Shown here piece after piece: positions 10,549 to 38,020 of a stretch of DNA of 64,000 bases (positions are counted from its first letter, which is position 1; each line of letters opens with the position of its first letter). The position numbers were made by a program, and so were the translations under genes. The notes under the pieces are model-generated. The model saw only the letters and a list, made by a program, of their open reading frames with translations, ran no database searches and had not been told where the DNA came from. The stretch is from assembly GCA_028707275.1 (NCBI GenBank), contig JAQTUP010000008.1, positions 1 through 64,000 of the forward strand, written 5' to 3'. The DNA comes from Gallionella sp. (GTDB lineage Bacteria > Pseudomonadota > Gammaproteobacteria > Burkholderiales > Gallionellaceae).

Positions 10549-11699
10549 AACCATACTCGCTCTGGCTGTTAGGTTTTCGCCCGTTTTTTATACTCGCGAT
10601 CTTGTCGGGATTGATTCTGCCTGTTTTGTGGGCGCTGATCTTCTCGGGGGTTATTGCCGCGCCCGCGACCACTTTTTCCGCGATGCAGTGGCATGCGCAC
10701 GAGATGTTTTTTGGTTTCGGCTGGGCCGTCCTTGGCGGTTTTTTGCTCACAGCCAGCAAAAACTGGGTCAAGGTTCGAGGTTATCACGGCATGGCGCTGA
10801 TGTTTCTTGCAGCCGCCTGGTTGTTTGAACGGGCAGGCATGTGGTTCGAGGGGGTTTGGCCCCATTTGCTATTCACAATTTCAAACAAGCTGTTTTTGGG
10901 CGCTATCGTCGCCATGATCGTGTGGACGCTGATTCGCTATCGCCGTGCCGACTTCTACCGCGACAATTACTTTTTCTTGCTGATTCTGCCCTTGTTTTTG
11001 GTCGCCAAGCACCTGCTGCTGAGCGTCGACTATTTCCAGGAAGGCGCCGTCATGGCAGTGGGGCTGTTTCGTATGGCTTTTCTGGTGATGCTGGAGCGCA
11101 CGGTGACGCAGTTCATGAAAGGCGCATTCCAGGTCGAAATACTGAGCAATCCGCTGCTGGACAAGACGATCAAGTTGCTGGGACTCAGTCTGGTGTTCGC
11201 AGGCTTCATGCCGCCCGTTCTTGCCGGCGGCTTAGCCTTGTCGCTCGCGCTGTTGCTGGCGCTGCGCCTGGTTTTCTGGAAACCGCAGCTGGCCATGCAG
11301 CGGCTCGATATTGGCATCATGTATCTGGGGTATCTTGCGATCACCGCACAACTGGTGATTGAATCGATGAGGCTGACGGCGTATCCGCAATGGCCGCTGT
11401 CCTTGTCCATACATGTGTTTACTTTCGGCGCGATAGGGCTGATTATTCCTGCGATGTTGATCAGGATTAGCCGTGGACACACCGGCCGTCAGGTGGTATT
11501 TGACGCGCGCGACAAACTCGTTCTGTGGCTGATGATGGCAGCGTTTGTCTTCCGTCTCATCGCGCCCGCACTCGATTCTGCCGACTATACGCGCTGGATT
11601 TTTCTGGCGGCCGCCTGCTGGTCAGTCAGCTTCGCGCTGCTCGCCTGGCGCTATATTCCCTTTTTGCTGCAACCCAGAATTGATGGCCGCGAACACTGA
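10545..11699 (+). CDS. nnrS: NnrS family haem-copper membrane protein
   Basis: A 384-residue protein with about 12 transmembrane segments. The family signature is clear at the start: LLGFRPFFILAI, then MQWHAHEMFFGFGWAVLGGFLLTASKNW. Conserved histidines in H-A-H-E and later helices (SIHVFTFGAIG) are thought to bind haem and copper. NnrS proteins relieve nitric-oxide damage to central metabolism in other proteobacteria. It is last in the NsrR operon and translationally coupled to nsrR. Confidence 0.9.
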   Translation: MKPYSLWLLGFRPFFILAILSGLILPVLWALIFSGVIAAPATTFSAMQWHAHEMFFGFGWAVLGGFLLTASKNWVKVRGYHGMALMFLAAAWLFERAGMWFEGVWPHLLFTISNKLFLGAIVAMIVWTLIRYRRADFYRDNYFFLLILPLFLVAKHLLLSVDYFQEGAVMAVGLFRMAFLVMLERTVTQFMKGAFQVEILSNPLLDKTIKLLGLSLVFAGFMPPVLAGGLALSLALLLALRLVFWKPQLAMQRLDIGIMYLGYLAITAQLVIESMRLTAYPQWPLSLSIHVFTFGAIGLIIPAMLIRISRGHTGRQVVFDARDKLVLWLMMAAFVFRLIAPALDSADYTRWIFLAAACWSVSFALLAWRYIPFLLQPRIDGREH

Positions 11700-24678: not shown

Positions 24679-25890
24679 ATGAATATTAAAGTTATTAAGT
24701 CCAGTGATGATTATTCACAGGCAATTGCGCGACTTTCCGCGCTGATGACGCTCGACCCGCAAGCCGATTCAATGGAAGAAAACGAACTGGAGCTTCTGGC
24801 GCTGGTCATCGAAGATTATGAACGGAAAATTGTGCCGGTCACGGCGTCCGATCCGATAGAAGCGATTCTTTTTCGTATGGATCAAATGAATCTCGCACGC
24901 AAAGATTTGCAACCCTATATGGGTTCCCTGTCCAAGGTTTCGGAAGTGTTGTCGCGTAAGCGTCCTCTCTCGCTTTCCATGATTCGCCGCCTGCATAGTG
25001 GACTCGGGATCCCGGCGGACGTGCTTATCGGCGGTAGCGAAATTAGCCAGGTAACTGTTGGCGATGCGCCTGAGATGGATTACACAAAATTTCCCCTCAA
25101 GGAGATGTTTGATCGCGGATGTTTTGGTGACTTCAAAGGGAACACGCAACGCCTTCGAGATTACGCCGAAGAGATGCTTCCCGGTTTCATGCATGGACTC
25201 TTACCCAAACAAGTCGAACCCGCATTTCTGCGCGCACCGTTACATCAACGCGGCACCCGAGATGCGGACGGATATGCGCTGCTTGCCTGGAGGCTGTGCG
25301 TAATCAAAAAGGCGCGCGCCAATCCCGCCCCGCGCGAGTACAAAAAAGGCGTTGTTACTGCAAAATGGCTGAAAGACCTTGCACGGCTTTCGGCATTCGA
25401 AGATGGCTCGCGTCTGGCCCGTGAGCAACTCGGCATGGCAGGCATTACGCTGGTCATTGAACCGCACTTCAAGGGCACTTATCTTGATGGCGCGGCGATG
25501 CTCGATGAGGGGCGTCCTGTTGTCGCCATGACGCTGCGCCATGATTGCCTGGATAACTTCTGGTTTGTGTTGATGCACGAACTGGCTCACGTCTCGTGCC
25601 ACCTGGATGAAGCACATCCTCTGTTCACGGACAATCTGGATAGCCCGGATGCACAAGATCGCATCGAGCGAGATGCTGATGAAATGGCGGGCGCGGCACT
25701 CATTCCACAAGTCGCCTGGGAAAAATCTGCTGCCAGTACCAGTCATCTATCCGCCGATGTGGTTGCCCTTGCCGAAAAACTGGGTGTACATCCAGCTATC
25801 GTTGCAGGCCGCGTTCGGCATGAAACGAAGAATTACCATATTCTGGCCAAGCTAGTTGGCCACGGCCAAGTTGGCCGCCACTTTGCATAA
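24679..25890 (+). CDS. HigA-type antitoxin fused to ImmA/IrrE metallopeptidase
   Basis: A 403-residue protein. Residues 1-60 resemble HigA-type N-termini (ENELELLALVIEDYERKIVP), residues 60-120 hold a helix-turn-helix (MNLARKDLQPYMGSLSKVSEVLSRKRPLS), and residues 200-360 an ImmA/IrrE domain with HELAHVSCH (HExxH, about 300). Such fusions act as antitoxins or cleave repressors in mobile elements. The toxin upstream is reduced to a tail, so this is an orphan. GGGGGGGAAG precedes the ATG. Confidence 0.82.
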   Translation: MNIKVIKSSDDYSQAIARLSALMTLDPQADSMEENELELLALVIEDYERKIVPVTASDPIEAILFRMDQMNLARKDLQPYMGSLSKVSEVLSRKRPLSLSMIRRLHSGLGIPADVLIGGSEISQVTVGDAPEMDYTKFPLKEMFDRGCFGDFKGNTQRLRDYAEEMLPGFMHGLLPKQVEPAFLRAPLHQRGTRDADGYALLAWRLCVIKKARANPAPREYKKGVVTAKWLKDLARLSAFEDGSRLAREQLGMAGITLVIEPHFKGTYLDGAAMLDEGRPVVAMTLRHDCLDNFWFVLMHELAHVSCHLDEAHPLFTDNLDSPDAQDRIERDADEMAGAALIPQVAWEKSAASTSHLSADVVALAEKLGVHPAIVAGRVRHETKNYHILAKLVGHGQVGRHFA

Positions 25891-26080: not shown

Positions 26081-27817
26081 ATGATTACCCGATTGACCTT
26101 GAGCAATTTCAAGAGTGTAGGCAAACAAATTTACGACTTCACTCAGTTCGATCTGCTGGTCGGGCGCAATAACAGCGGCAAGAGCACCGTACTTCAGGCA
26201 CTGGCCATCTGGCAGTTTTGTGTGGATGAGTTTCATCGTTCCAAGAGCCGTGGCTCTAAGGGTATCCAAGTCGTGCTGCCAAACTTTACCGCCTTGCCAG
26301 TACCGGAATTCAACCTGCTTTGGAAAGATAGAGATATACGTCACTCGCCCAATAAAAAGCAGGAATACATCCTGATAGGCATTCATGTGGAATGGCAGCG
26401 TGCGACAGGCGAGACCGGAGCATTTGGTGTGGATTTACGCTATCACTCGCCACAAACCATTTACGCTATTCCCGTGGGTGGCTGGGCAAAATTCCGAGCC
26501 TGCGAGCAGCAAGGCGATCTGCCGACAATTGCTTATGTACCGCCATTTTCCGGACTGGAACCGATGGAGAAGTGGCTGGATATTGCCCCGATCCGCCAGC
26601 AAGTGGGCAAAGGTCAACCCGGCAGCGTGCTAAGAAATCTACTATTAAAAACCTGTCCGTCACCTGTCCGTGGACAGGATGGACGCATCGCCAAGGGCTA
26701 TGTACCACCTCCGAATTGGCAAGAGCTGGCTAACATTATCGAACGTTGGTTTTCGGTCAAAATTAGTGAGCCAAAATATGACTCAGCCAAAGATGTTTAC
26801 ATCACGGTTGAGTACCGCCAGAACGGCAAGGACTACGACATCATCGCAGGTGGGAGCGGATTCCATCAAACAATGACGTTGCTGGCTTTCCTGTATGGTT
26901 ATCAGCCGACAACCATTCTGCTCGACGAGCCGGATGCTCATCTGCATGTCAACTTGCAACGAGAGATTCTCGATTTCTTCAAACGGAAGTCTGTTGAGAG
27001 AAACACGCAGTTCCTGATTGCCACACACGCTGAGGAGTTTGTACGCGGTGTGGATGCCAGTCAGATTGTTTCCCTGTTAAGCCACGAACCCAAGCGTGTT
27101 CCGTCTACGCCCGAAGTGCGGCGTGCCATGTCGGAGGTATCGAACGAGGAAATCACGCGGTTGATGGCATCGCCTTACATCCTTTATGTGGAGGGAGAAA
27201 GCGACGAGCGAATTTTGCGCGCATGGGCCGATGTTTGCGCAGCTCAGGTGGCGATGGACAAGGTTTGTTTCAAAACTATGGGTGGCGGCGGCAAGGAAAA
27301 TATGAAAACCAGGGCGGATGAGCATTTTGCTGCGCTGAAGCAGATCATCCCAAATGTAGCAAGATTAATGCTTTTTGATTACGACAGCAGCGATACCGCT
27401 TTCCACCCAGCGCCCGGCAATCCTACACTGACTGAGTGGAAGCGAAAAAATATTGAAAACTACCTACTCGTTCCCGACGCATGGAAGCGAGCTGTACTAG
27501 TGCAGATGCAATGCGATGAGAATGATTTGTTTGCGCAGCCTGTTTTGCAGATGATCGACGTGCTTTTTGCTGACCAGAATTTAACGTTACCGCTTGGAAA
27601 ATCCTGGCGGAATGTCACCGCAAATGTGTTCAGCGTGGTGGATGGCAAGCGAATTTTGTTCGAGAACGACGATTCGTTTTTCCATCAACTACGGAAAGGC
27701 TCACCATCCATTAAACTTGTCCGCGAACAAGTAGCATTGAGTATGGAAGCCGACGAAATCCATGAGGATGTACATCATTTTCTCGGCAAGTTGGTTGAAA
27801 TGGTCGGAACAAACTGA
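26081..27817 (+). CDS. OLD-like ATPase with C-terminal TOPRIM/DUF4435-like domain
   Basis: A 578-residue protein. The ABC-type ATPase half has Walker A GRNNSGKST (about 28), a signature-like GGSGFHQTM (about 255) and Walker B TILLDEPDAHLH (about 280), then ATHAEEF. The C-terminal part has a TOPRIM-like acidic motif YVEGESDE (about 368), LFDYDSSD (about 430) and the WKRKNIENYLL motif seen in DUF4435/OLD nucleases. Families of this build (OLD, Gabija GajA, PARIS) defend against phages. It stands alone, with no obvious partner, in an accessory island. AAGGGAAAG precedes the ATG. Confidence 0.75.
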   Translation: MITRLTLSNFKSVGKQIYDFTQFDLLVGRNNSGKSTVLQALAIWQFCVDEFHRSKSRGSKGIQVVLPNFTALPVPEFNLLWKDRDIRHSPNKKQEYILIGIHVEWQRATGETGAFGVDLRYHSPQTIYAIPVGGWAKFRACEQQGDLPTIAYVPPFSGLEPMEKWLDIAPIRQQVGKGQPGSVLRNLLLKTCPSPVRGQDGRIAKGYVPPPNWQELANIIERWFSVKISEPKYDSAKDVYITVEYRQNGKDYDIIAGGSGFHQTMTLLAFLYGYQPTTILLDEPDAHLHVNLQREILDFFKRKSVERNTQFLIATHAEEFVRGVDASQIVSLLSHEPKRVPSTPEVRRAMSEVSNEEITRLMASPYILYVEGESDERILRAWADVCAAQVAMDKVCFKTMGGGGKENMKTRADEHFAALKQIIPNVARLMLFDYDSSDTAFHPAPGNPTLTEWKRKNIENYLLVPDAWKRAVLVQMQCDENDLFAQPVLQMIDVLFADQNLTLPLGKSWRNVTANVFSVVDGKRILFENDDSFFHQLRKGSPSIKLVREQVALSMEADEIHEDVHHFLGKLVEMVGTN

Positions 27818-31622: not shown

Positions 31623-31647
31623 AATAATTACTTTCTTGCGAGTGCTT

Positions 31648-32709
31648 ATGAGTGGCCCGATTACCGCAATTTATGTCGCAGACCCGTTAACCGTGATGCT
31701 TTCCGCATCCGCCATCCGGGCGGCGCAGGCGATCGCCGAAGGTTACGCGCGCGCGGACAATTTACGCGCAGAGCAACAAGATTATCGCAATCGTCTGCGA
31801 GATGAGCTAAAAGGTGCGGATGCCGCAGGGCGCGAGGCGGCGGCGCAAGCACTGCTTGCGGCAGAGGCCGAGTTCGAGACCCTCGCGGCTTTGGCACAAC
31901 GCTATGTTGCGCAAGAGAACATCGACGCGATGCGCCCGGCTCGTGCGCAGGCGGGTGATGCATTGCAACAGGCCACTTATCTGCACACTTTGCAGGCGTT
32001 GACTGGCGAGTTGCGCGCCATTCTGCTGACTGAATCCGCGCGGCGCATGGACGATCTCGGACAGGCCATCCTGCCGGAGCGTGACGTCACCCCCCTGACG
32101 GATGTACAGCGCCTGCTGGCGCGCATTTCCCATCTGGGCGAATTGCCGCAGGAGATTGCCGGTGTGGCAAAGGAAATCGCGGACTCGCCTTTTATGGATA
32201 CCGAGCGGGTGCAATTATTGACGACCGAGTTGCGCATGCGCATCCAGCGACATGTCGAAGCCGTGCGGACTCGGGAGGTGCAGGCCGCATCCGCGCTCAT
32301 CTTGCAACAATCCTTGAAGGACTTGGGGTATCAGGTGGAGGAGGTGTCCAGCACCCTGTTTGTCGAGGGCGGTGTGGTGCACTTCAGGCGGCAGGGCTGG
32401 GACAATTATATGGTGCGGATGCGCGTCGACGCGAAAGCTGGCACGAGCAACTTCAACGTCATTCGCGCGGCGGAGGAGGCGGGCAATGAACTTAGCGTGC
32501 TGGATCATCTGGCCGAAGACCGGTGGTGCGCCGAATTTCCGGCCTTGTTGCAGGCTCTGGACGTGCGCGGTCTGCACCTGAATGTCACGCGCCGCAAGGC
32601 GGCCGGAGAATTGCCTGTGCAACGGGTGCAAAAAGACAAGCTGCCGACCTTCGCAGAAGAGGATGCACCGGAACACCGCCAAAAATTACATACTCGTGAA
32701 TTAACATGA
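31648..32709 (+). CDS. Coiled-coil protein of unknown function, first gene of kinase/Clp/radical-SAM operon
   Basis: A 353-residue soluble protein from MSGPITAIYVADPLTVMLSA (an in-frame TTG lies 12 bp upstream; no clear ribosome site). Residues 20-130 are alanine-, glutamate- and arginine-rich and should form coiled coils; about 190-260 are again helical (TELRMRIQRHVEAVRTREVQ). The region SLKDLGYQVEEVSSTLFVEGGVVHFRRQGWDNYMVRMRV looks like a small alpha/beta domain. No family is recognised. It overlaps the Clp-like gene by 4 bp and is probably a substrate, adaptor or structural partner in that system. Confidence 0.7.
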   Translation: MSGPITAIYVADPLTVMLSASAIRAAQAIAEGYARADNLRAEQQDYRNRLRDELKGADAAGREAAAQALLAAEAEFETLAALAQRYVAQENIDAMRPARAQAGDALQQATYLHTLQALTGELRAILLTESARRMDDLGQAILPERDVTPLTDVQRLLARISHLGELPQEIAGVAKEIADSPFMDTERVQLLTTELRMRIQRHVEAVRTREVQAASALILQQSLKDLGYQVEEVSSTLFVEGGVVHFRRQGWDNYMVRMRVDAKAGTSNFNVIRAAEEAGNELSVLDHLAEDRWCAEFPALLQALDVRGLHLNVTRRKAAGELPVQRVQKDKLPTFAEEDAPEHRQKLHTRELT

Positions 32710-34607
32710 CGCTACCCGCCTCGCGCTGGCTCACCGATTTCGAACGGCTGTTAGCCATCCGTTCGCAGTTTGTGGTCTCCGGCAGCATCCATGATAATTT
32801 TCTTGTGCCGCTCTCCACGGGGGCTGCGCTGGTGCCTTTGATCCGCGCGGTATGGGAAACGCTGAAGGTCAAAAATTATCGCTTTTTGCTGGTGTACGAT
32901 CCGGCCGATGGCGTGCGCGTTTATCCTGACGAATTATCCTGTCGCGAGCTGGCCGAAAAACTGTTCGATCTGAAGTTAAAATCCGGCTATCAGATGGTGA
33001 GCCTTGAGAGTTTATCCAACATCATGAAAGCAATGGTGATGCAGCGTGAAGTGCATTGTGCGCTGGTGGTTGATTTCGCCTCGCGCATCACCCGTCAGGC
33101 CGATCATCCGGGTGAGGGCGAACACCGTTTTTTTGTGGCGGCCGAAAAACTGGCCTTGAATGCCGCGCCTGTTGTGCCGTCCCCCCTTTCCAACTTTCCC
33201 CCGCAAGCGGGAGAAAGAGCAAACGAGAAAGTCAATGTTCAATCCTTGGGCGGCGGCAAGCCTTTATATAATCCGGTGTTGTGGCTGGTCAACCGTGCGC
33301 AGGACCTGCCTTCCTGGTATACGCTGGACAGCGAACGCATCGCCAGCCTGATCATCGGAAAACCGGATTACGAGATGCGCCGTGCGACCGCGCAGCAATT
33401 GGCGCCGTTATTTGCAGGCTATGCCGAGGCACAGGCTCCCGCTCGCGATAAATTCGTCGAACGCATGGCGGATGGCACGGAAGGCATGTCGCTCACCGCC
33501 TTATCTGACATCACCGAACTGGCCGATCGCAGCGGGCTGGGGATGGGCGACATCGACGATGCGGTGCGCTGCTACAAGGTGGGCGCGTTGGATAATCCGT
33601 GGCGGCGGGATTATCTGCGCGAGAAAATCAGCCATGCGCAGTCCTTCATCGAGGATCGCGTCAAAGGCCAGCACCCGGCTGTGGTGAAGACCCTCGATAT
33701 TCTCAAACGCTCGGTGATGGGGTTAACCGGCGCGCAGGCAAGATCCGGCGGCAGTCGCCCGCGCGGCGTGCTGTTTTTCGCAGGGCCGACAGGGGTCGGT
33801 AAAACCGAACTCGCCAAGACGCTGACCCAGCTGGTATTCGGCAACGAGAAGGCTTACCTGCGTTTTGACATGAGCGAATTTTCCGAGGAACACAGCAGCG
33901 CCCGGCTGCTCGGCGCACCGCCAGGCTATGTCGGTTTCGATGCGGGGGGCGAGCTGACCAATGCCGTGCGCGAAAAACCCTTTTCGGTGGTGCTGTTCGA
34001 TGAGATCGAAAAAGCCCATCCGCGCATTCTGGATAAATTTTTGCAGATACTCGAAGACGGGCGGCTGACCGACGGGCGCGGCGATACCGCCTATTTTTCC
34101 GAAACCATACTGGTATTCACGTCCAACCTTGGCATCTTTGTCGAGGACAAACAGGGCAATCGCATCCAGCATGTCAAGCCGGGGGATGCCTACGAGACCG
34201 TGGAGAAAAATGTGCGTGAAGAAATCGGCAACTACTTCAAGTTCAAACTCTCGCGCCCGGAACTGCTCAATCGTATCGGCGACAATATCGTCGTGTTCGA
34301 TTTCATCAGCCCGGAAGTGGCGTCCGTTATTTTCGACGGCATGTTGAAAAATGTGGCGCGCCGTCTGTTTGAGGAATGGAAGGTTCAGCTGGCGTTGCCC
34401 CCGACAATCCGTGAGCAATTATTGATGCGCTGCACCAGCGATCCTAGCAACGGCGGGCGCGGCATCGGCAACCAGCTCGAATCCGCCTTCATCAACCCGC
34501 TGTCCCGCGCCCTGTTTGAGCATGATCTGGAAGGGAAAACAAGGCTGCTGGTCACCCGGATGACCGAACAGGACAAAGTCATTACGCTCGAACTAAAAAG
34601 CTCATGA
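32706..34607 (+). CDS. ClpB/ClpA-like AAA+ ATPase with degenerate first AAA half
   Basis: A 633-residue protein. Residues 340-600 are a ClpB-type second AAA module: Walker A GPTGVGKTEL (about 360), FDMSEFSEEHSSARLLGAPPGYVG, Walker B VVLFDEIEKAHP (about 432), sensor TSNLG (about 472) and a ClpB D2-small C-terminal part. Residues 1-290 resemble an AAA core without a P-loop (LLVYDPADGVRV where Walker A would be, and LWLVNRAQDLPSW as sensor-like strand). No Clp N-domain, M-domain or ClpP-binding loop is seen. Repeat sequence (33178-33225) is inserted in frame. It is probably an unfoldase in a signalling complex. Confidence 0.82.
   Translation: MTLPASRWLTDFERLLAIRSQFVVSGSIHDNFLVPLSTGAALVPLIRAVWETLKVKNYRFLLVYDPADGVRVYPDELSCRELAEKLFDLKLKSGYQMVSLESLSNIMKAMVMQREVHCALVVDFASRITRQADHPGEGEHRFFVAAEKLALNAAPVVPSPLSNFPPQAGERANEKVNVQSLGGGKPLYNPVLWLVNRAQDLPSWYTLDSERIASLIIGKPDYEMRRATAQQLAPLFAGYAEAQAPARDKFVERMADGTEGMSLTALSDITELADRSGLGMGDIDDAVRCYKVGALDNPWRRDYLREKISHAQSFIEDRVKGQHPAVVKTLDILKRSVMGLTGAQARSGGSRPRGVLFFAGPTGVGKTELAKTLTQLVFGNEKAYLRFDMSEFSEEHSSARLLGAPPGYVGFDAGGELTNAVREKPFSVVLFDEIEKAHPRILDKFLQILEDGRLTDGRGDTAYFSETILVFTSNLGIFVEDKQGNRIQHVKPGDAYETVEKNVREEIGNYFKFKLSRPELLNRIGDNIVVFDFISPEVASVIFDGMLKNVARRLFEEWKVQLALPPTIREQLLMRCTSDPSNGGRGIGNQLESAFINPLSRALFEHDLEGKTRLLVTRMTEQDKVITLELKSS
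33178..33225 (+). repeat. Palindromic repeat in frame inside the Clp-like gene
   Basis: CCAACTTTCCCCCGCAAGCG and GGGAGAAAGAGCAAACGAGA encode PSPLSNFPPQAGERANEK, with the same GAGCAAACGA tail as the repeat in moeA. It falls between residues 155 and 175 in the degenerate AAA half, probably in a surface loop. Confidence 0.7.
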
Positions 34608-35260
34608 AAATCAGCATCAATAAGGCACACTTTCCCGTCTCGGTGTTAGGCCCCGGCAAACGCCTGGGCATCTGGTTGCAAGGGTGCAGCATCGGTTGCA
34701 AGGGCTGCGTCTCGCAGGACACCTGGGCGCCTGATGCGGGGCGCGACATGACGGTCGCCCAATTGCTCGCCTGGTGCCGACAAACCGCGACCGGCGGATT
34801 CGATGGCGTGACGATCTCGGGCGGCGAGCCTTTCGATCAGCCTCAGGCATTGGCGGCCTTGCTGGACGGCCTGCACCACTGGCGCGAGGCCTGCAAACTC
34901 GATTTCGACATCCTCTGTTACAGCGGCTATCCGGCAGCTACGCTGCAAACAAAGCATGCAAAGCTATTACTGATGCTCGATGCCCTGATCCCAGAACCTT
35001 ATATTGATGCCAAACCGCTGACGCACGTCTGGCGCGGCTCATCCAATCAAACGCTGCTGCCCTTGTCTTTGCGAGGTCACAGGATATATACGCCCTGCCT
35101 GGATATGCTCTCAGCTCAGGCTGACAAACGCATCCAGATCATGCAGGACGGGGATCGCGTCTGGTATGTCGGCCTGCCCGGTCGCGGCGACATGGCCGCG
35201 CTGGAGTCTGTTTGTAAGTCGCGAGGTATCGAACTGACCGATGTTTCCTGGAGGTCGTAG
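34604..35260 (+). CDS. Radical SAM activase-like protein (single 4Fe-4S)
   Basis: A 218-residue protein with GCSIGCKGCVSQDTW (Cys 28, 32, 35: the CxxxCxxC that binds the 4Fe-4S cluster and SAM) and TISGGEPFDQPQAL (GGEP SAM site). Length and order resemble NrdG/PflA activases, which place a glycyl radical on a partner. No glycyl-radical enzyme is nearby, so the target is unknown; within this operon it could modify the Clp-like, kinase or coiled-coil protein. It overlaps the Clp-like gene by 4 bp. Confidence 0.85.
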   Translation: MKISINKAHFPVSVLGPGKRLGIWLQGCSIGCKGCVSQDTWAPDAGRDMTVAQLLAWCRQTATGGFDGVTISGGEPFDQPQALAALLDGLHHWREACKLDFDILCYSGYPAATLQTKHAKLLLMLDALIPEPYIDAKPLTHVWRGSSNQTLLPLSLRGHRIYTPCLDMLSAQADKRIQIMQDGDRVWYVGLPGRGDMAALESVCKSRGIELTDVSWRS

Positions 35261-37627
35261 ATGGATGCCGAGCTGATCCGCCGTTGTCCGGCCTGTGGCG
35301 CAGAGAATGCGCCGCAGGCCATGCGTTGCGGCTGCGGGATGATTCTGGCCGGGGTGGATATTGTCACCCGGCACGCCGCCACACCTGAAAAACATCAAGC
35401 CGAGGCGCCGGGCGCGGCCTTGCCGGTAGTTTGTCCCTTTGAGGATTGTGCTCAGGAAAACCCGCCGGGTTCGACTCTCTGTCTGTATTGCAATCGACCC
35501 GTCGGGGGCGTTGTCGCGCCGACTTCATCCGCATCATTACAGAGTCTGGTCAATCTGCCTGCGGCTTTGAAGGAGCGTTACCGCATCATCAGCCCCATGC
35601 CCACGCGCGGCGCAGAGGCTGAGTTGTTGATTGTGCAGGCGGTGGCGGGGGGGGGCAATTTGGTCGCCAAGATTTACCGGCACGGCATTGTACCCAGGGC
35701 GGATGTGCAGGCGCGCATCAACAAAATTCCGGTGGCGCATCGGGTCGAGGTGTTTGAAGTCGGCGTATCGGACGGTTATGCCTATGAACTGATGGAACTG
35801 TGCGAGCAAGGTTCCTTGCGCCAGATGATGGATGGCGGTGCGCTGGCGCCGGAAATATTGCAAAGCGTGATAACCGAGCTCGCCACCGCGCTGCATGACG
35901 TGCATGCGGCAGGTCTGGTGCATCGAGATTTGAAACCTGAGAATGTGCTGATTCGCAGCCGGGAACCGCTGGATCTGGTGCTGACCGATTTTAGTATTTC
36001 CTCGATACTTGACGTTACGCAACGCTTTACCGGGGTGGCGCGCACCTTGCCTTACGCGGCGCCTGAGAGTCTGTCCGGGGTGATCGACTTCAAGTCCGAC
36101 TTCTGGGCCATGGGCATGATCGTCCTGGAGGGCGCCACAGGCAAACATCCTTACGCCGGTTTGTCAGAAGCGGTGGTGATGCACCACCTGACCACGCGCA
36201 ATATCGATCTTATCGAAGTGAGCGATCGCAATGTGCGCAAGTTGCTGCGAGGCCTGTTGCAGCGGGATCCGGCCTTGCGCTGGGGGGCTGACGAAATTGA
36301 GCGCTGGCTCAATAATGACCCGCGCCTTGCCGAGCCCGCTGAGGCAAGTGCGGTCAAAGGCTTTAACGAGCCCTATCATATCGCACGTGAAGTTTGCTAC
36401 AAACCGGAGCAATTGGCCGTTGCCCTGGCGCGCCACTGGAAGGAGGGGGTGGCGGACATCTCTAACGGGCAGCTTTTGACCTGGTTTCGCGATGTGCAAA
36501 AAGATCAGAATGTGGTGCGCTTACTGCTCGACATGCGCAGTCCGGGGAACAGTCAGGGGAATATCTCCGTGCACCTGCAACTGCTCAGACTGATTCTCCA
36601 CCTGGCGCCCGGGATTCCGCCCGTATGGCAGGGCGAAACGATCGCGCTCTCCACCATCCTGACTTATGCCAATCAATCCCTCAACGGAGATATGGCCGCC
36701 GCCCGCTGGCTGGATAATCTGTACCAGTTCCGCGTGCTGGAATTCTATGCCGAGGCCGGTAATCTTCAGGCGGCCGATCTGGTCAAAAGATGGCATCATG
36801 CCCTGGACTTGTTTGATTCCGCATGGACGGCCAAGCTCGCCATTATTTCAGATAAAAGTGCCGCGCGCGACCCGGAGGTGCTGGCTGACTTCGATCAGCT
36901 CATGTACGGCCGCGACGATTTGCAGCGCCCGGACCTTGCCCACATGCATGCCAGATTGCTGGCCATGTCATATGACCCTTCATGGAGCGAACGTCTGCGC
37001 CGCCGCGTGCTCGCAGAACTGCTCAGCCTCGCTTCCCGGTGTGCCTGGGTAGCTGACCTGGGCGACCCGCTGCAAATGGATGCAGCGTCCCTCCTGGTAT
37101 TGGAAGCGCTGTTGCCGGAGGCTAAAAAATCGGTCGAGCACCAGCTTAAAAAAATGGCGCGCGATCGCGATGAGATGGACAGGGAATACACGGCCCTGCG
37201 TGAGGACATCGGTACGGTGCTGGATCATATTCGCAGTGTCGCCACCTCCGGGCTGGCGACCCCTGCCGTCTGCGACGATCTTCGGGCGCATATCGAACAC
37301 TACATGCAACTGATCGTTGCGATACGCGCCTCGTCCCGATCCGATCAGGACTGGCTGGATTTTAAAAAACAGGCGCTGCGCTCGCAAATGGCGGCCAGCA
37401 GAATGCTGGAAAAACTGGATGAACTCGCCCGGCATCGCGCGATCTCGGCAGGATGGTTTACCCTGGAGGCGACAGGTTTTGTCGTCCTGGGGCTTTTTGT
37501 GCTGCCTGTCCTGTTCCCCGGTATCAGGCTCTGGTTGATCCTGGCGATTATCGCCCTGGTCGCCTGGCGCTTATTGCCCGACTACCTGATGATGAAGTCA
37601 ATTCAGGAGCTAGGTGCGCTTTTTTAG
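35261..37627 (+). CDS. Zinc-ribbon Ser/Thr protein kinase with C-terminal membrane anchor
   Basis: A 788-residue protein. Two zinc ribbons lie at the N-terminus (CPACGAENAPQAMRCGCG; CPFEDCAQENPPG...CLYCNRPVGG). A Hanks-type kinase follows at about 105-360: lysine in VAKIYRHG (about 137), HRDLKPEN (about 222), TDFSIS in place of DFG (about 245), YAAPESLSG. Then come about 330 helical residues, a coiled coil (VEHQLKKMARDRDEMDREYTA broken here for length) and two transmembrane helices near the end (about 735-780). The start abuts the previous stop, with GGAGG before it. It should tie the operon to the membrane. Confidence 0.85.
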   Translation: MDAELIRRCPACGAENAPQAMRCGCGMILAGVDIVTRHAATPEKHQAEAPGAALPVVCPFEDCAQENPPGSTLCLYCNRPVGGVVAPTSSASLQSLVNLPAALKERYRIISPMPTRGAEAELLIVQAVAGGGNLVAKIYRHGIVPRADVQARINKIPVAHRVEVFEVGVSDGYAYELMELCEQGSLRQMMDGGALAPEILQSVITELATALHDVHAAGLVHRDLKPENVLIRSREPLDLVLTDFSISSILDVTQRFTGVARTLPYAAPESLSGVIDFKSDFWAMGMIVLEGATGKHPYAGLSEAVVMHHLTTRNIDLIEVSDRNVRKLLRGLLQRDPALRWGADEIERWLNNDPRLAEPAEASAVKGFNEPYHIAREVCYKPEQLAVALARHWKEGVADISNGQLLTWFRDVQKDQNVVRLLLDMRSPGNSQGNISVHLQLLRLILHLAPGIPPVWQGETIALSTILTYANQSLNGDMAAARWLDNLYQFRVLEFYAEAGNLQAADLVKRWHHALDLFDSAWTAKLAIISDKSAARDPEVLADFDQLMYGRDDLQRPDLAHMHARLLAMSYDPSWSERLRRRVLAELLSLASRCAWVADLGDPLQMDAASLLVLEALLPEAKKSVEHQLKKMARDRDEMDREYTALREDIGTVLDHIRSVATSGLATPAVCDDLRAHIEHYMQLIVAIRASSRSDQDWLDFKKQALRSQMAASRMLEKLDELARHRAISAGWFTLEATGFVVLGLFVLPVLFPGIRLWLILAIIALVAWRLLPDYLMMKSIQELGALF

Positions 37628-37693: not shown

Positions 37694-38020
37694 ATGACTC
37701 GCCCAAATCACCACAATGTCTATGTGATAGAACTATCGAAGGACGTTCTTTACGAGGCCAAGTTCAAAAAGCGCAATCCGGATTACATCACGGGCAAACC
37801 TTGCGTGTATGTCGGTATGACAGGGCTGGATCCGGATCTTAGATTCGACAAACATAAGGCGGGCATCCAGTCCAACAGATATGTCCGGCAATACGGTTTG
37901 CGTTTATGGCCTGACCTCTACGAAGCTTACAATCCGATGTCCTACGATGAGGCGTGCGAGATGGAAGTGGAATTGGGGATTATGCTGCGTGAAGCGGGGT
38001 TTGGAATCTGGCAGGCGTGA
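37694..38020 (+). CDS. GIY-YIG-like small protein
   Basis: A 108-residue protein: NVYVIELS, then CVYVGMTGLDPDLRFDKHKAG resemble the GIY and YIG strands and the following arginine helix of GIY-YIG nucleases. The usual catalytic glutamate could be in the CEMEVELGIML helix. It is 66 bp after the kinase operon with its own poor ribosome site, so its link to that operon is uncertain. It may be an isolated GIY-YIG domain protein of unknown job. Confidence 0.6.
   Translation: MTRPNHHNVYVIELSKDVLYEAKFKKRNPDYITGKPCVYVGMTGLDPDLRFDKHKAGIQSNRYVRQYGLRLWPDLYEAYNPMSYDEACEMEVELGIMLREAGFGIWQA

Follow-up and report, generated by a model that had tools for sequence, protein, structure and literature searches.

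The closest printed relative we found of the system reported here is the FtsH ternary system (vWA-MoxR subsystem 3), a predicted conflict system with an FtsH-type AAA+ ATPase and vWA and MoxR partners (PMC7159879, Kaur et al. 2020). Here we analyze a four-gene locus, genes A to D, in a 64,000-nucleotide stretch of Gallionella sp. DNA (assembly GCA_028707275.1, contig JAQTUP010000008.1; the whole stretch is called the window), encoding in order a coiled-coil protein, a Clp-type AAA+ protein, a radical S-adenosylmethionine (SAM) protein and a zinc-ribbon kinase. The locus has in common with FtsH ternary systems a radical SAM gene, additional effectors and a two-domain AAA+ protein with neither P-loop nor Walker B in its first domain, and B, with activity judged from motifs, appears to repeat their inactive-first, active-second tandem. 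Unlike in the FtsH systems, the second AAA+ domain of B is of Clp type (AAA_2, ClpB_D2-small), and a scan covering A to D only found no vWA or MoxR domain over cut-off (bpMoxR on B, 18.1 of 27 bits). PMC10853773, in the sections available, does not describe this gene set, and no paper with the combination was found in the literature searched, most subscription journals lying outside it; the cassette is thus undescribed as far as searched. The initial annotation likewise knew of no described system joining the four genes, and none of the profile libraries used names the set as a system.

The four genes, we propose, make up a modular cassette that is probably a conflict system, directed against phages or otherwise. 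In it B would remodel A, C would modify A, and A, depending on its state, would switch on an exchangeable effector, in the window D (rough probability 0.5). In that case the cassette would belong to the modular AAA+-centered conflict systems, in a form undescribed as far as searched. The genes occupy positions 31648-37627, all on the + strand, and the open reading frames (ORFs) bear out the tight coupling noted in the initial annotation: A and B share an ATGA overlap at 32706, B and C another at 34604, and C and D abut as TAG|ATG at 35260/35261 with 0 bp between them. The features are:

31648..32709, + strand: gene A, 353-aa predicted coiled-coil protein (ORF from ATG; alignment; predicted model)
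32527..32529, + strand: codon of A Cys294, invariant in 74/74 aligned relatives
32706..34607, + strand: gene B, 633-aa Clp-type AAA+ protein (ORF; family profiles; motifs; predicted model)
32706..33605, + strand: first half of B, a D1-like AAA domain that has neither Walker A nor the glutamate of Walker B (VVDFAS) (motifs; predicted model)
33783..33806, + strand: D2 Walker A of B, GPTGVGKT, residues 360-367 (motif; pore-loop GYVG and DEIEKAH downstream)
34604..35260, + strand: gene C, 218-aa NrdG-like radical SAM protein (ORF; family profiles)
34685..34708, + strand: CX3CX2C iron-sulphur motif of C, residues 28-35, invariant in 19/19 aligned
35261..37627, + strand: gene D, 788-aa zinc-ribbon Ser/Thr kinase, predicted membrane-anchored (ORF; Pkinase profile; motifs)
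35285..35491, + strand: two zinc ribbons of D, Cys 9, 12, 23, 25 and 58, 63, 74, 77, all invariant in 16/16 aligned
35558..36325, + strand: kinase domain of D, keeping Lys137, HRDLKPEN and DFS (Pkinase profile; motifs)
37448..37564, + strand: predicted C-terminal transmembrane hairpin of D (hydrophobic segment prediction)

A co-inherited set of four genes

A genome-wide scan with A as query returned 43 loci, mostly betaproteobacterial, with one each titled Methylococcaceae, Rhodospirillales and Mycobacteriaceae, the last a metagenome-assembled genome (MAG) that may be mis-binned. All four genes stand in identical order and strand in 39 of the 43, with median gaps of -4, -4 and +1 nucleotides (at most 60 nucleotides in 35, 31 and 38 of the 39, respectively). 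The other four loci are cut short: L008, L035 and L045 reach contig ends, and L046 breaks off at the beginning of a D-like zinc-ribbon start, roughly 1.3 kb past C. In that interval (L046 17020-18420) antitoxin-like and restriction-endonuclease-like ORFs were recognized by eye. Because no ORF cluster other than A-D recurs in more than 7 of 44 loci, the cassette can be treated as a conserved unit, and the neighborhood comparison supports the initial annotation in seeing a real module of the four named classes. Pairwise distances among the four proteins correlate (r 0.69-0.88), which speaks for joint inheritance only, since no control gene entered the calculation.

The families of protein B, AAA_2 and ClpB_D2-small, are both confined to the second half, where the pore loop, Walker B and TSN motif are all intact; its single P-loop lies at residue 360, and the predicted model aligns along its full length with the D1-D2 pair of ClpC/ClpB, in agreement with the dead first half described by the initial annotation. 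The same layout recurs in all 30 further B frames, each with one P-loop, after the first domain (27 distinct records; the frames in L080 and L082 are partial). D2 is nearest to ClpB (NCBIfam, 258 bits, cut-off 1232) and also matches TssH/ClpV (209.9 bits). In contrast to the ClpB/ClpC/Hsp104 unfoldases, B has a D1 that is dead, measures about 630 aa, shows no match to ClpN and has a recurrent radical SAM partner; it has one P-loop where ClpB and ClpC have two, but retains a D2 of Clp type, with its pore loop and D2-small domain. B is predicted to be a ring-shaped motor that threads its substrate without the help of a protease, with the dead first ring predicted to serve as an ATP-independent docking platform.

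Protein A begins with MSGP at 31648, invariant in 74/74 aligned relatives; an in-frame TTG lies upstream at 31636. The predicted model (mean predicted local distance difference test score 80.6) has helices at residues 13-50, 55-86, 105-133 and 186-225 and a small C-terminal alpha/beta domain that holds Cys294, the sole cysteine of A. In a wider alignment that includes proteins without demonstrated homology, this cysteine is kept in 17/21, and MSGP opens 15/21 A-slot proteins, 6 of them among the 12 distinct distant ones. A matched no family in Pfam, NCBIfam, PADLOC or PHROGs, its model found no match in the PDB by Foldseek at E 0.001, and comparison of its C-terminus with the KA1 fold by VIA gave only a middling KA1-like Z.

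Protein C falls into the Fer4_12/radical SAM families; NrdG scores highest, at 81.6 bits under a cut-off of 126.1, and phrog_626, the anaerobic ribonucleotide reductase small subunit, matches at E 4e-23. NrdG/PflA-type radical SAM activases are usually regarded as serving glycyl-radical enzymes, and C is likewise small, with a Fer4_12 domain and CX3CX2C, but it stays below the family cut-offs. What would C act on here? The initial annotation saw no glycyl-radical enzyme nearby; neither Gly_radical nor NRDD was found near the locus or anywhere in the window genome (3.17 Mb, 99.95% complete). Among 25 cassette genomes, Gly_radical occurs in 2, NRDD in 4 and either in 5; the remaining 20, the window genome included, have neither. 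The glycyl-radical-like motif [RK][VI][SATC]G[YFW] is absent from proteins A-D. Since most cassette genomes have no such enzyme, C points to an unknown substrate.

Protein D is predicted to be anchored in the membrane via its C-terminal hairpin, and a hydrophobic segment falls within the last 110 residues in 39 of the 40 D frames. Its zinc-ribbon matches lie under the Pfam cut-offs, yet the eight cysteines are invariant in the aligned set.

Patchy distribution and exchangeable partners

The cassette is an accessory, patchily distributed element. With the first half of B as query and the own genome included in the counts, matches were present in 3/61 relatives, of which 2/37 of the same genus (the own genome and G1019), and in 10/300 genomes of the same order, 5/321 of a class sample and 9/398 of a phylum sample, where two of the nine (G882, G973) are weak and G973 lacks B by seed searches. 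The closest relatives judged by A are titled Gallionella and Sideroxydans. In 72,556 plasmid records, five B queries gave 9, 12, 19, 17 and 12 overlapping matches, and B, usually with C, is found on plasmids of Rhizobium, Caballeronia, Leisingera, Photobacterium, Acinetobacter, Moellerella, Polaromonas, Aristaeella and Geminocystis (1 of 6 Moellerella and 2 of 7 Rhizobium plasmids were fetched). Such a patchy, mobile distribution is the one looked for in defense systems, a trait not specific to defense.

Relatives of B extend to Clostridia and one cyanobacterium. The initial annotation named conserved co-occurrence of all four genes in distant phyla as support for a real system; the full four-gene form was found in Pseudomonadota and in the one possibly mis-binned MAG (L034), and B and C with other partners occur in the clostridial and cyanobacterial records. 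The Aristaeella B query retrieved 1444 proteins at E <=0.001 from 3738 candidates, and the organism names among the 120 matches listed are all Clostridia, including Lachnospiraceae and Clostridium scindens.

Viral collections gave little. IMG/VR yielded no locus with A and none with the B of the variants that carry PIN nucleases; one B variant found nothing in 50,697 phage records and had no DNA-level match in E. coli genomes. A clostridial B drew at least 600 IMG/VR stretches, 590 encoding a relative, which we read as ordinary Clp proteins and did not count; all 80 matches listed begin at query residue 202 or later, with 33-43% identity. With one IMG/VR locus only, a phage origin of the cassette was rejected. 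At L072 8977-10863 a B relative sits at the extreme edge of an IMG/VR contig, beside phage-like genes that look by eye like BRO-N and RusA types, and is possibly prophage cargo.

Further B loci show how variable the partners are. The 30 frames represent 27 distinct loci, as L059, L060 and L061 duplicate the records L033, L041 and L045; L102 (no B by seeds) and L124 (kinase only) stand outside the 30. C is present in 20 of the 27, though in L074 and L081 it lies 7-9 kb away from B, and an A homologue is present in 12 (window or L058 seed). Matches to the A slot number 18, but those of L073, L075, L077 and L083-L085 were obtained only with seeds from their own class, and we left them out of the A count. 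An A homologue in every variant was rejected, with hhalign giving no backing for the PIN class or Aristaeella. Because hhalign does not tie those slot proteins to A, we take B-C to be the core, which A joins only within branches of its own; judged by sequence, B-C is the most widely conserved core and the kinase slot is exchangeable.

The effector slot holds a transmembrane-type kinase in L062, L064, L065 and L066, the last also with a PP2C gene, and L099 combines a kinase with PP2C. In L081 it holds a kinase with C-terminal WD40 repeats, accompanied by an FHA/zinc-ribbon gene; this kinase (L081 8842-11841) is of D type, with WD40 repeats instead of the transmembrane tail. L058, L076, L078, L086 and L097 encode fusions of kinase, superfamily 1 (SF1) helicase and MTES_1575 restriction endonuclease of 1824-2366 aa (domains by Pfam for L058 and L097, by seeds for the other three), and L098 a kinase-helicase. 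The plasmid variants L075, L077, L083, L084 and L085 pair an SF1 helicase with a PIN protein and have no kinase by seeds, and L073, from Clostridia, has a DUF4011 helicase, kinase, FHA and PP2C. Within the genus, G1019 has A, B and C but no D after C, a 34%-identical D-like kinase lying on another contig. The four genes that the initial annotation joined into one system stay together in 39 of 43 loci, but the kinase is not obligatory, as the five helicase/PIN plasmids and G1019 show.

Some individual loci have features of their own. In G1019 an ankyrin-repeat-like ORF, so recognized by eye, lies between A and B (L119 8619-9077). A transposase-like ORF, IS3-type by eye, stands directly upstream of the B-C-D'-A' cassette of L058 (10590-12128). 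The C gene of the Rhizobium plasmid copy L086 is split over two frames (10725-11481) and may thus be broken or misread; that of L076 is in one frame.

Several variant effectors resemble known defense proteins in PADLOC: MkoA in L077 (E 8e-93), and PDC-S37 (E 4e-149) and Hhe (E 9e-68) in L058. They share SF1 helicase, restriction endonuclease and kinase modules with Mokosh MkoA, Hhe and PDC-S37. The definition of Mokosh includes an RNA helicase (MkoA/MkoC), whereas D in the window is a kinase only, without helicase; the MkoA-like helicase is present in L058 and L077. None of the Mokosh, Hhe and PDC-S37 systems is known to be built on a B-C core. B itself gives partial AAA+ matches to Dodola DolB and PDC-M37B, within residues 349-475 of its D2 core.

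A proposed switch and its alternatives

How might the four proteins act together? We suggest that B threads or pulls coiled-coil A open through its active ring, so that C could reach its site and modify A, and that the state of A would then release or activate the exchangeable effector. A phage or stress signal would lead to this release; in the window, D would phosphorylate targets at the membrane and growth would stop, while other versions of the cassette may attack nucleic acid. The architecture comes from sequence, and from it we infer function. A would be the likeliest substrate of B and C in the window's branch, with Cys294 the better candidate site, since A is the only other constant small partner there, has one invariant cysteine, and no glycyl-radical enzyme is at hand. 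The defense reading draws on the patchiness, the plasmid carriage and the helicase and nuclease effectors resembling PADLOC models, so that the defense-type role raised in the initial annotation gains indirect support, while support for phospho-signaling is limited to the recurrent kinase, PP2C and FHA genes in the loci.

Several observations weigh against this proposal. The window copy has no nuclease, and its surroundings are molybdenum-cofactor and central-metabolism genes. The PADLOC matches are either incomplete or limited to one domain. C was not found by seeds in 7 of the 27 distinct B loci; two of these (L063, L072) stop at B, and the other five (L079, L080, L082, L100, L101) have at least 2.5 kb past B without C. 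A glycyl-radical enzyme or NrdD is present in 5 of the 25 cassette genomes, several of which are MAGs and possibly incomplete. In the five PIN variants and in Aristaeella, the proteins in the A slot gave no significant match to A (hhalign E 0.09 and 0.066); those of the PIN class lack MSGP, while that of Aristaeella does begin with it. Such non-matching proteins weaken A as a general target of C and speak against one universal substrate.

The alternatives differ in what they make of B and C. The locus could be a stress or quality-control module without a defense role. B would then act as a disaggregase on membrane or iron-sulphur proteins that have been damaged, with A as adaptor, C would carry out repair and D would be a stress kinase; the nearness of D2 to ClpB, the housekeeping-like flanks and the nuclease-free window copy would suit such a module, but a presence in only 2/37 same-genus genomes, plasmid-borne relatives and the replacement of the kinase by helicase/restriction endonuclease or helicase/PIN genes fit it poorly, and we regard it as unlikely, though not far-fetched. 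ClpV, which disassembles the type VI sheath, suggests another role for B, that of a motor taking apart a coiled-coil assembly of A under the control of kinase D, with C a structural or regulatory Fe-S protein. The long helices that chiefly make up the predicted A, the TssH/ClpV match of D2 and the FHA, PP2C and kinase partners of the variants are consistent with this; it leaves the nuclease and helicase partners unexplained and sits uneasily with the fully conserved CX3CX2C of C, so we consider it rather improbable.

The description of C as an NrdG-like protein invites a third account, in which C would serve as a conventional activase, working in trans on NrdD or some other glycyl-radical enzyme, while A, B and D regulate anaerobic ribonucleotide reduction. 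NrdG is indeed the top score of C, joined by the phrog_626 match, but that score misses the family cut-off, A to D lack a glycyl-radical-like motif, and with Gly_radical and NRDD absent from 20/25 cassette genomes we rejected this account, to which we grant very little chance.

Returning to the conflict cassette, we tentatively offer a more specific version of it, which we hold to be doubtful: a radical-armed unfoldase switch, in which B would open A, C would radical-modify it at Cys294 or at the MSGP glycine, and modified A would license plug-in effectors (membrane kinase, WD40 kinase or helicase-nuclease), while other branches would run B-C with another partner and PIN nucleases.

Neighboring genes and wider meaning

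About 4 kb upstream of the cassette, among the molybdenum-cofactor genes, the window encodes a helix-turn-helix-plus-metallopeptidase ORF, ImmA/IrrE-like by eye (24679-25890), and an OLD/GajA-like AAA ATPase with PADLOC matches to NsnB, AriA and AbiLi (26081-27817), possibly a small defense cluster. Directly downstream, a GIY-YIG-like ORF (37694-38020, 108 aa) was rejected as a fifth gene, its Pfam E of 0.014 being below cut-off and no match above 45 bits appearing in the 43 loci. In an empty-site test, mqo was not found near glk in the seven same-genus glk loci fetched.

The cassette is directly testable, with one candidate substrate, one conserved cysteine and effector variants at hand. If it is a defense system, it adds a plasmid-borne core with exchangeable effectors, whose AAA+ relatives reach Lachnospiraceae. 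If the radical-armed switch is true, it would amount to a new immune logic in which the unfolding of a protein is joined with radical SAM chemistry, with a range that runs from Betaproteobacteria as far as Clostridia and cyanobacteria.

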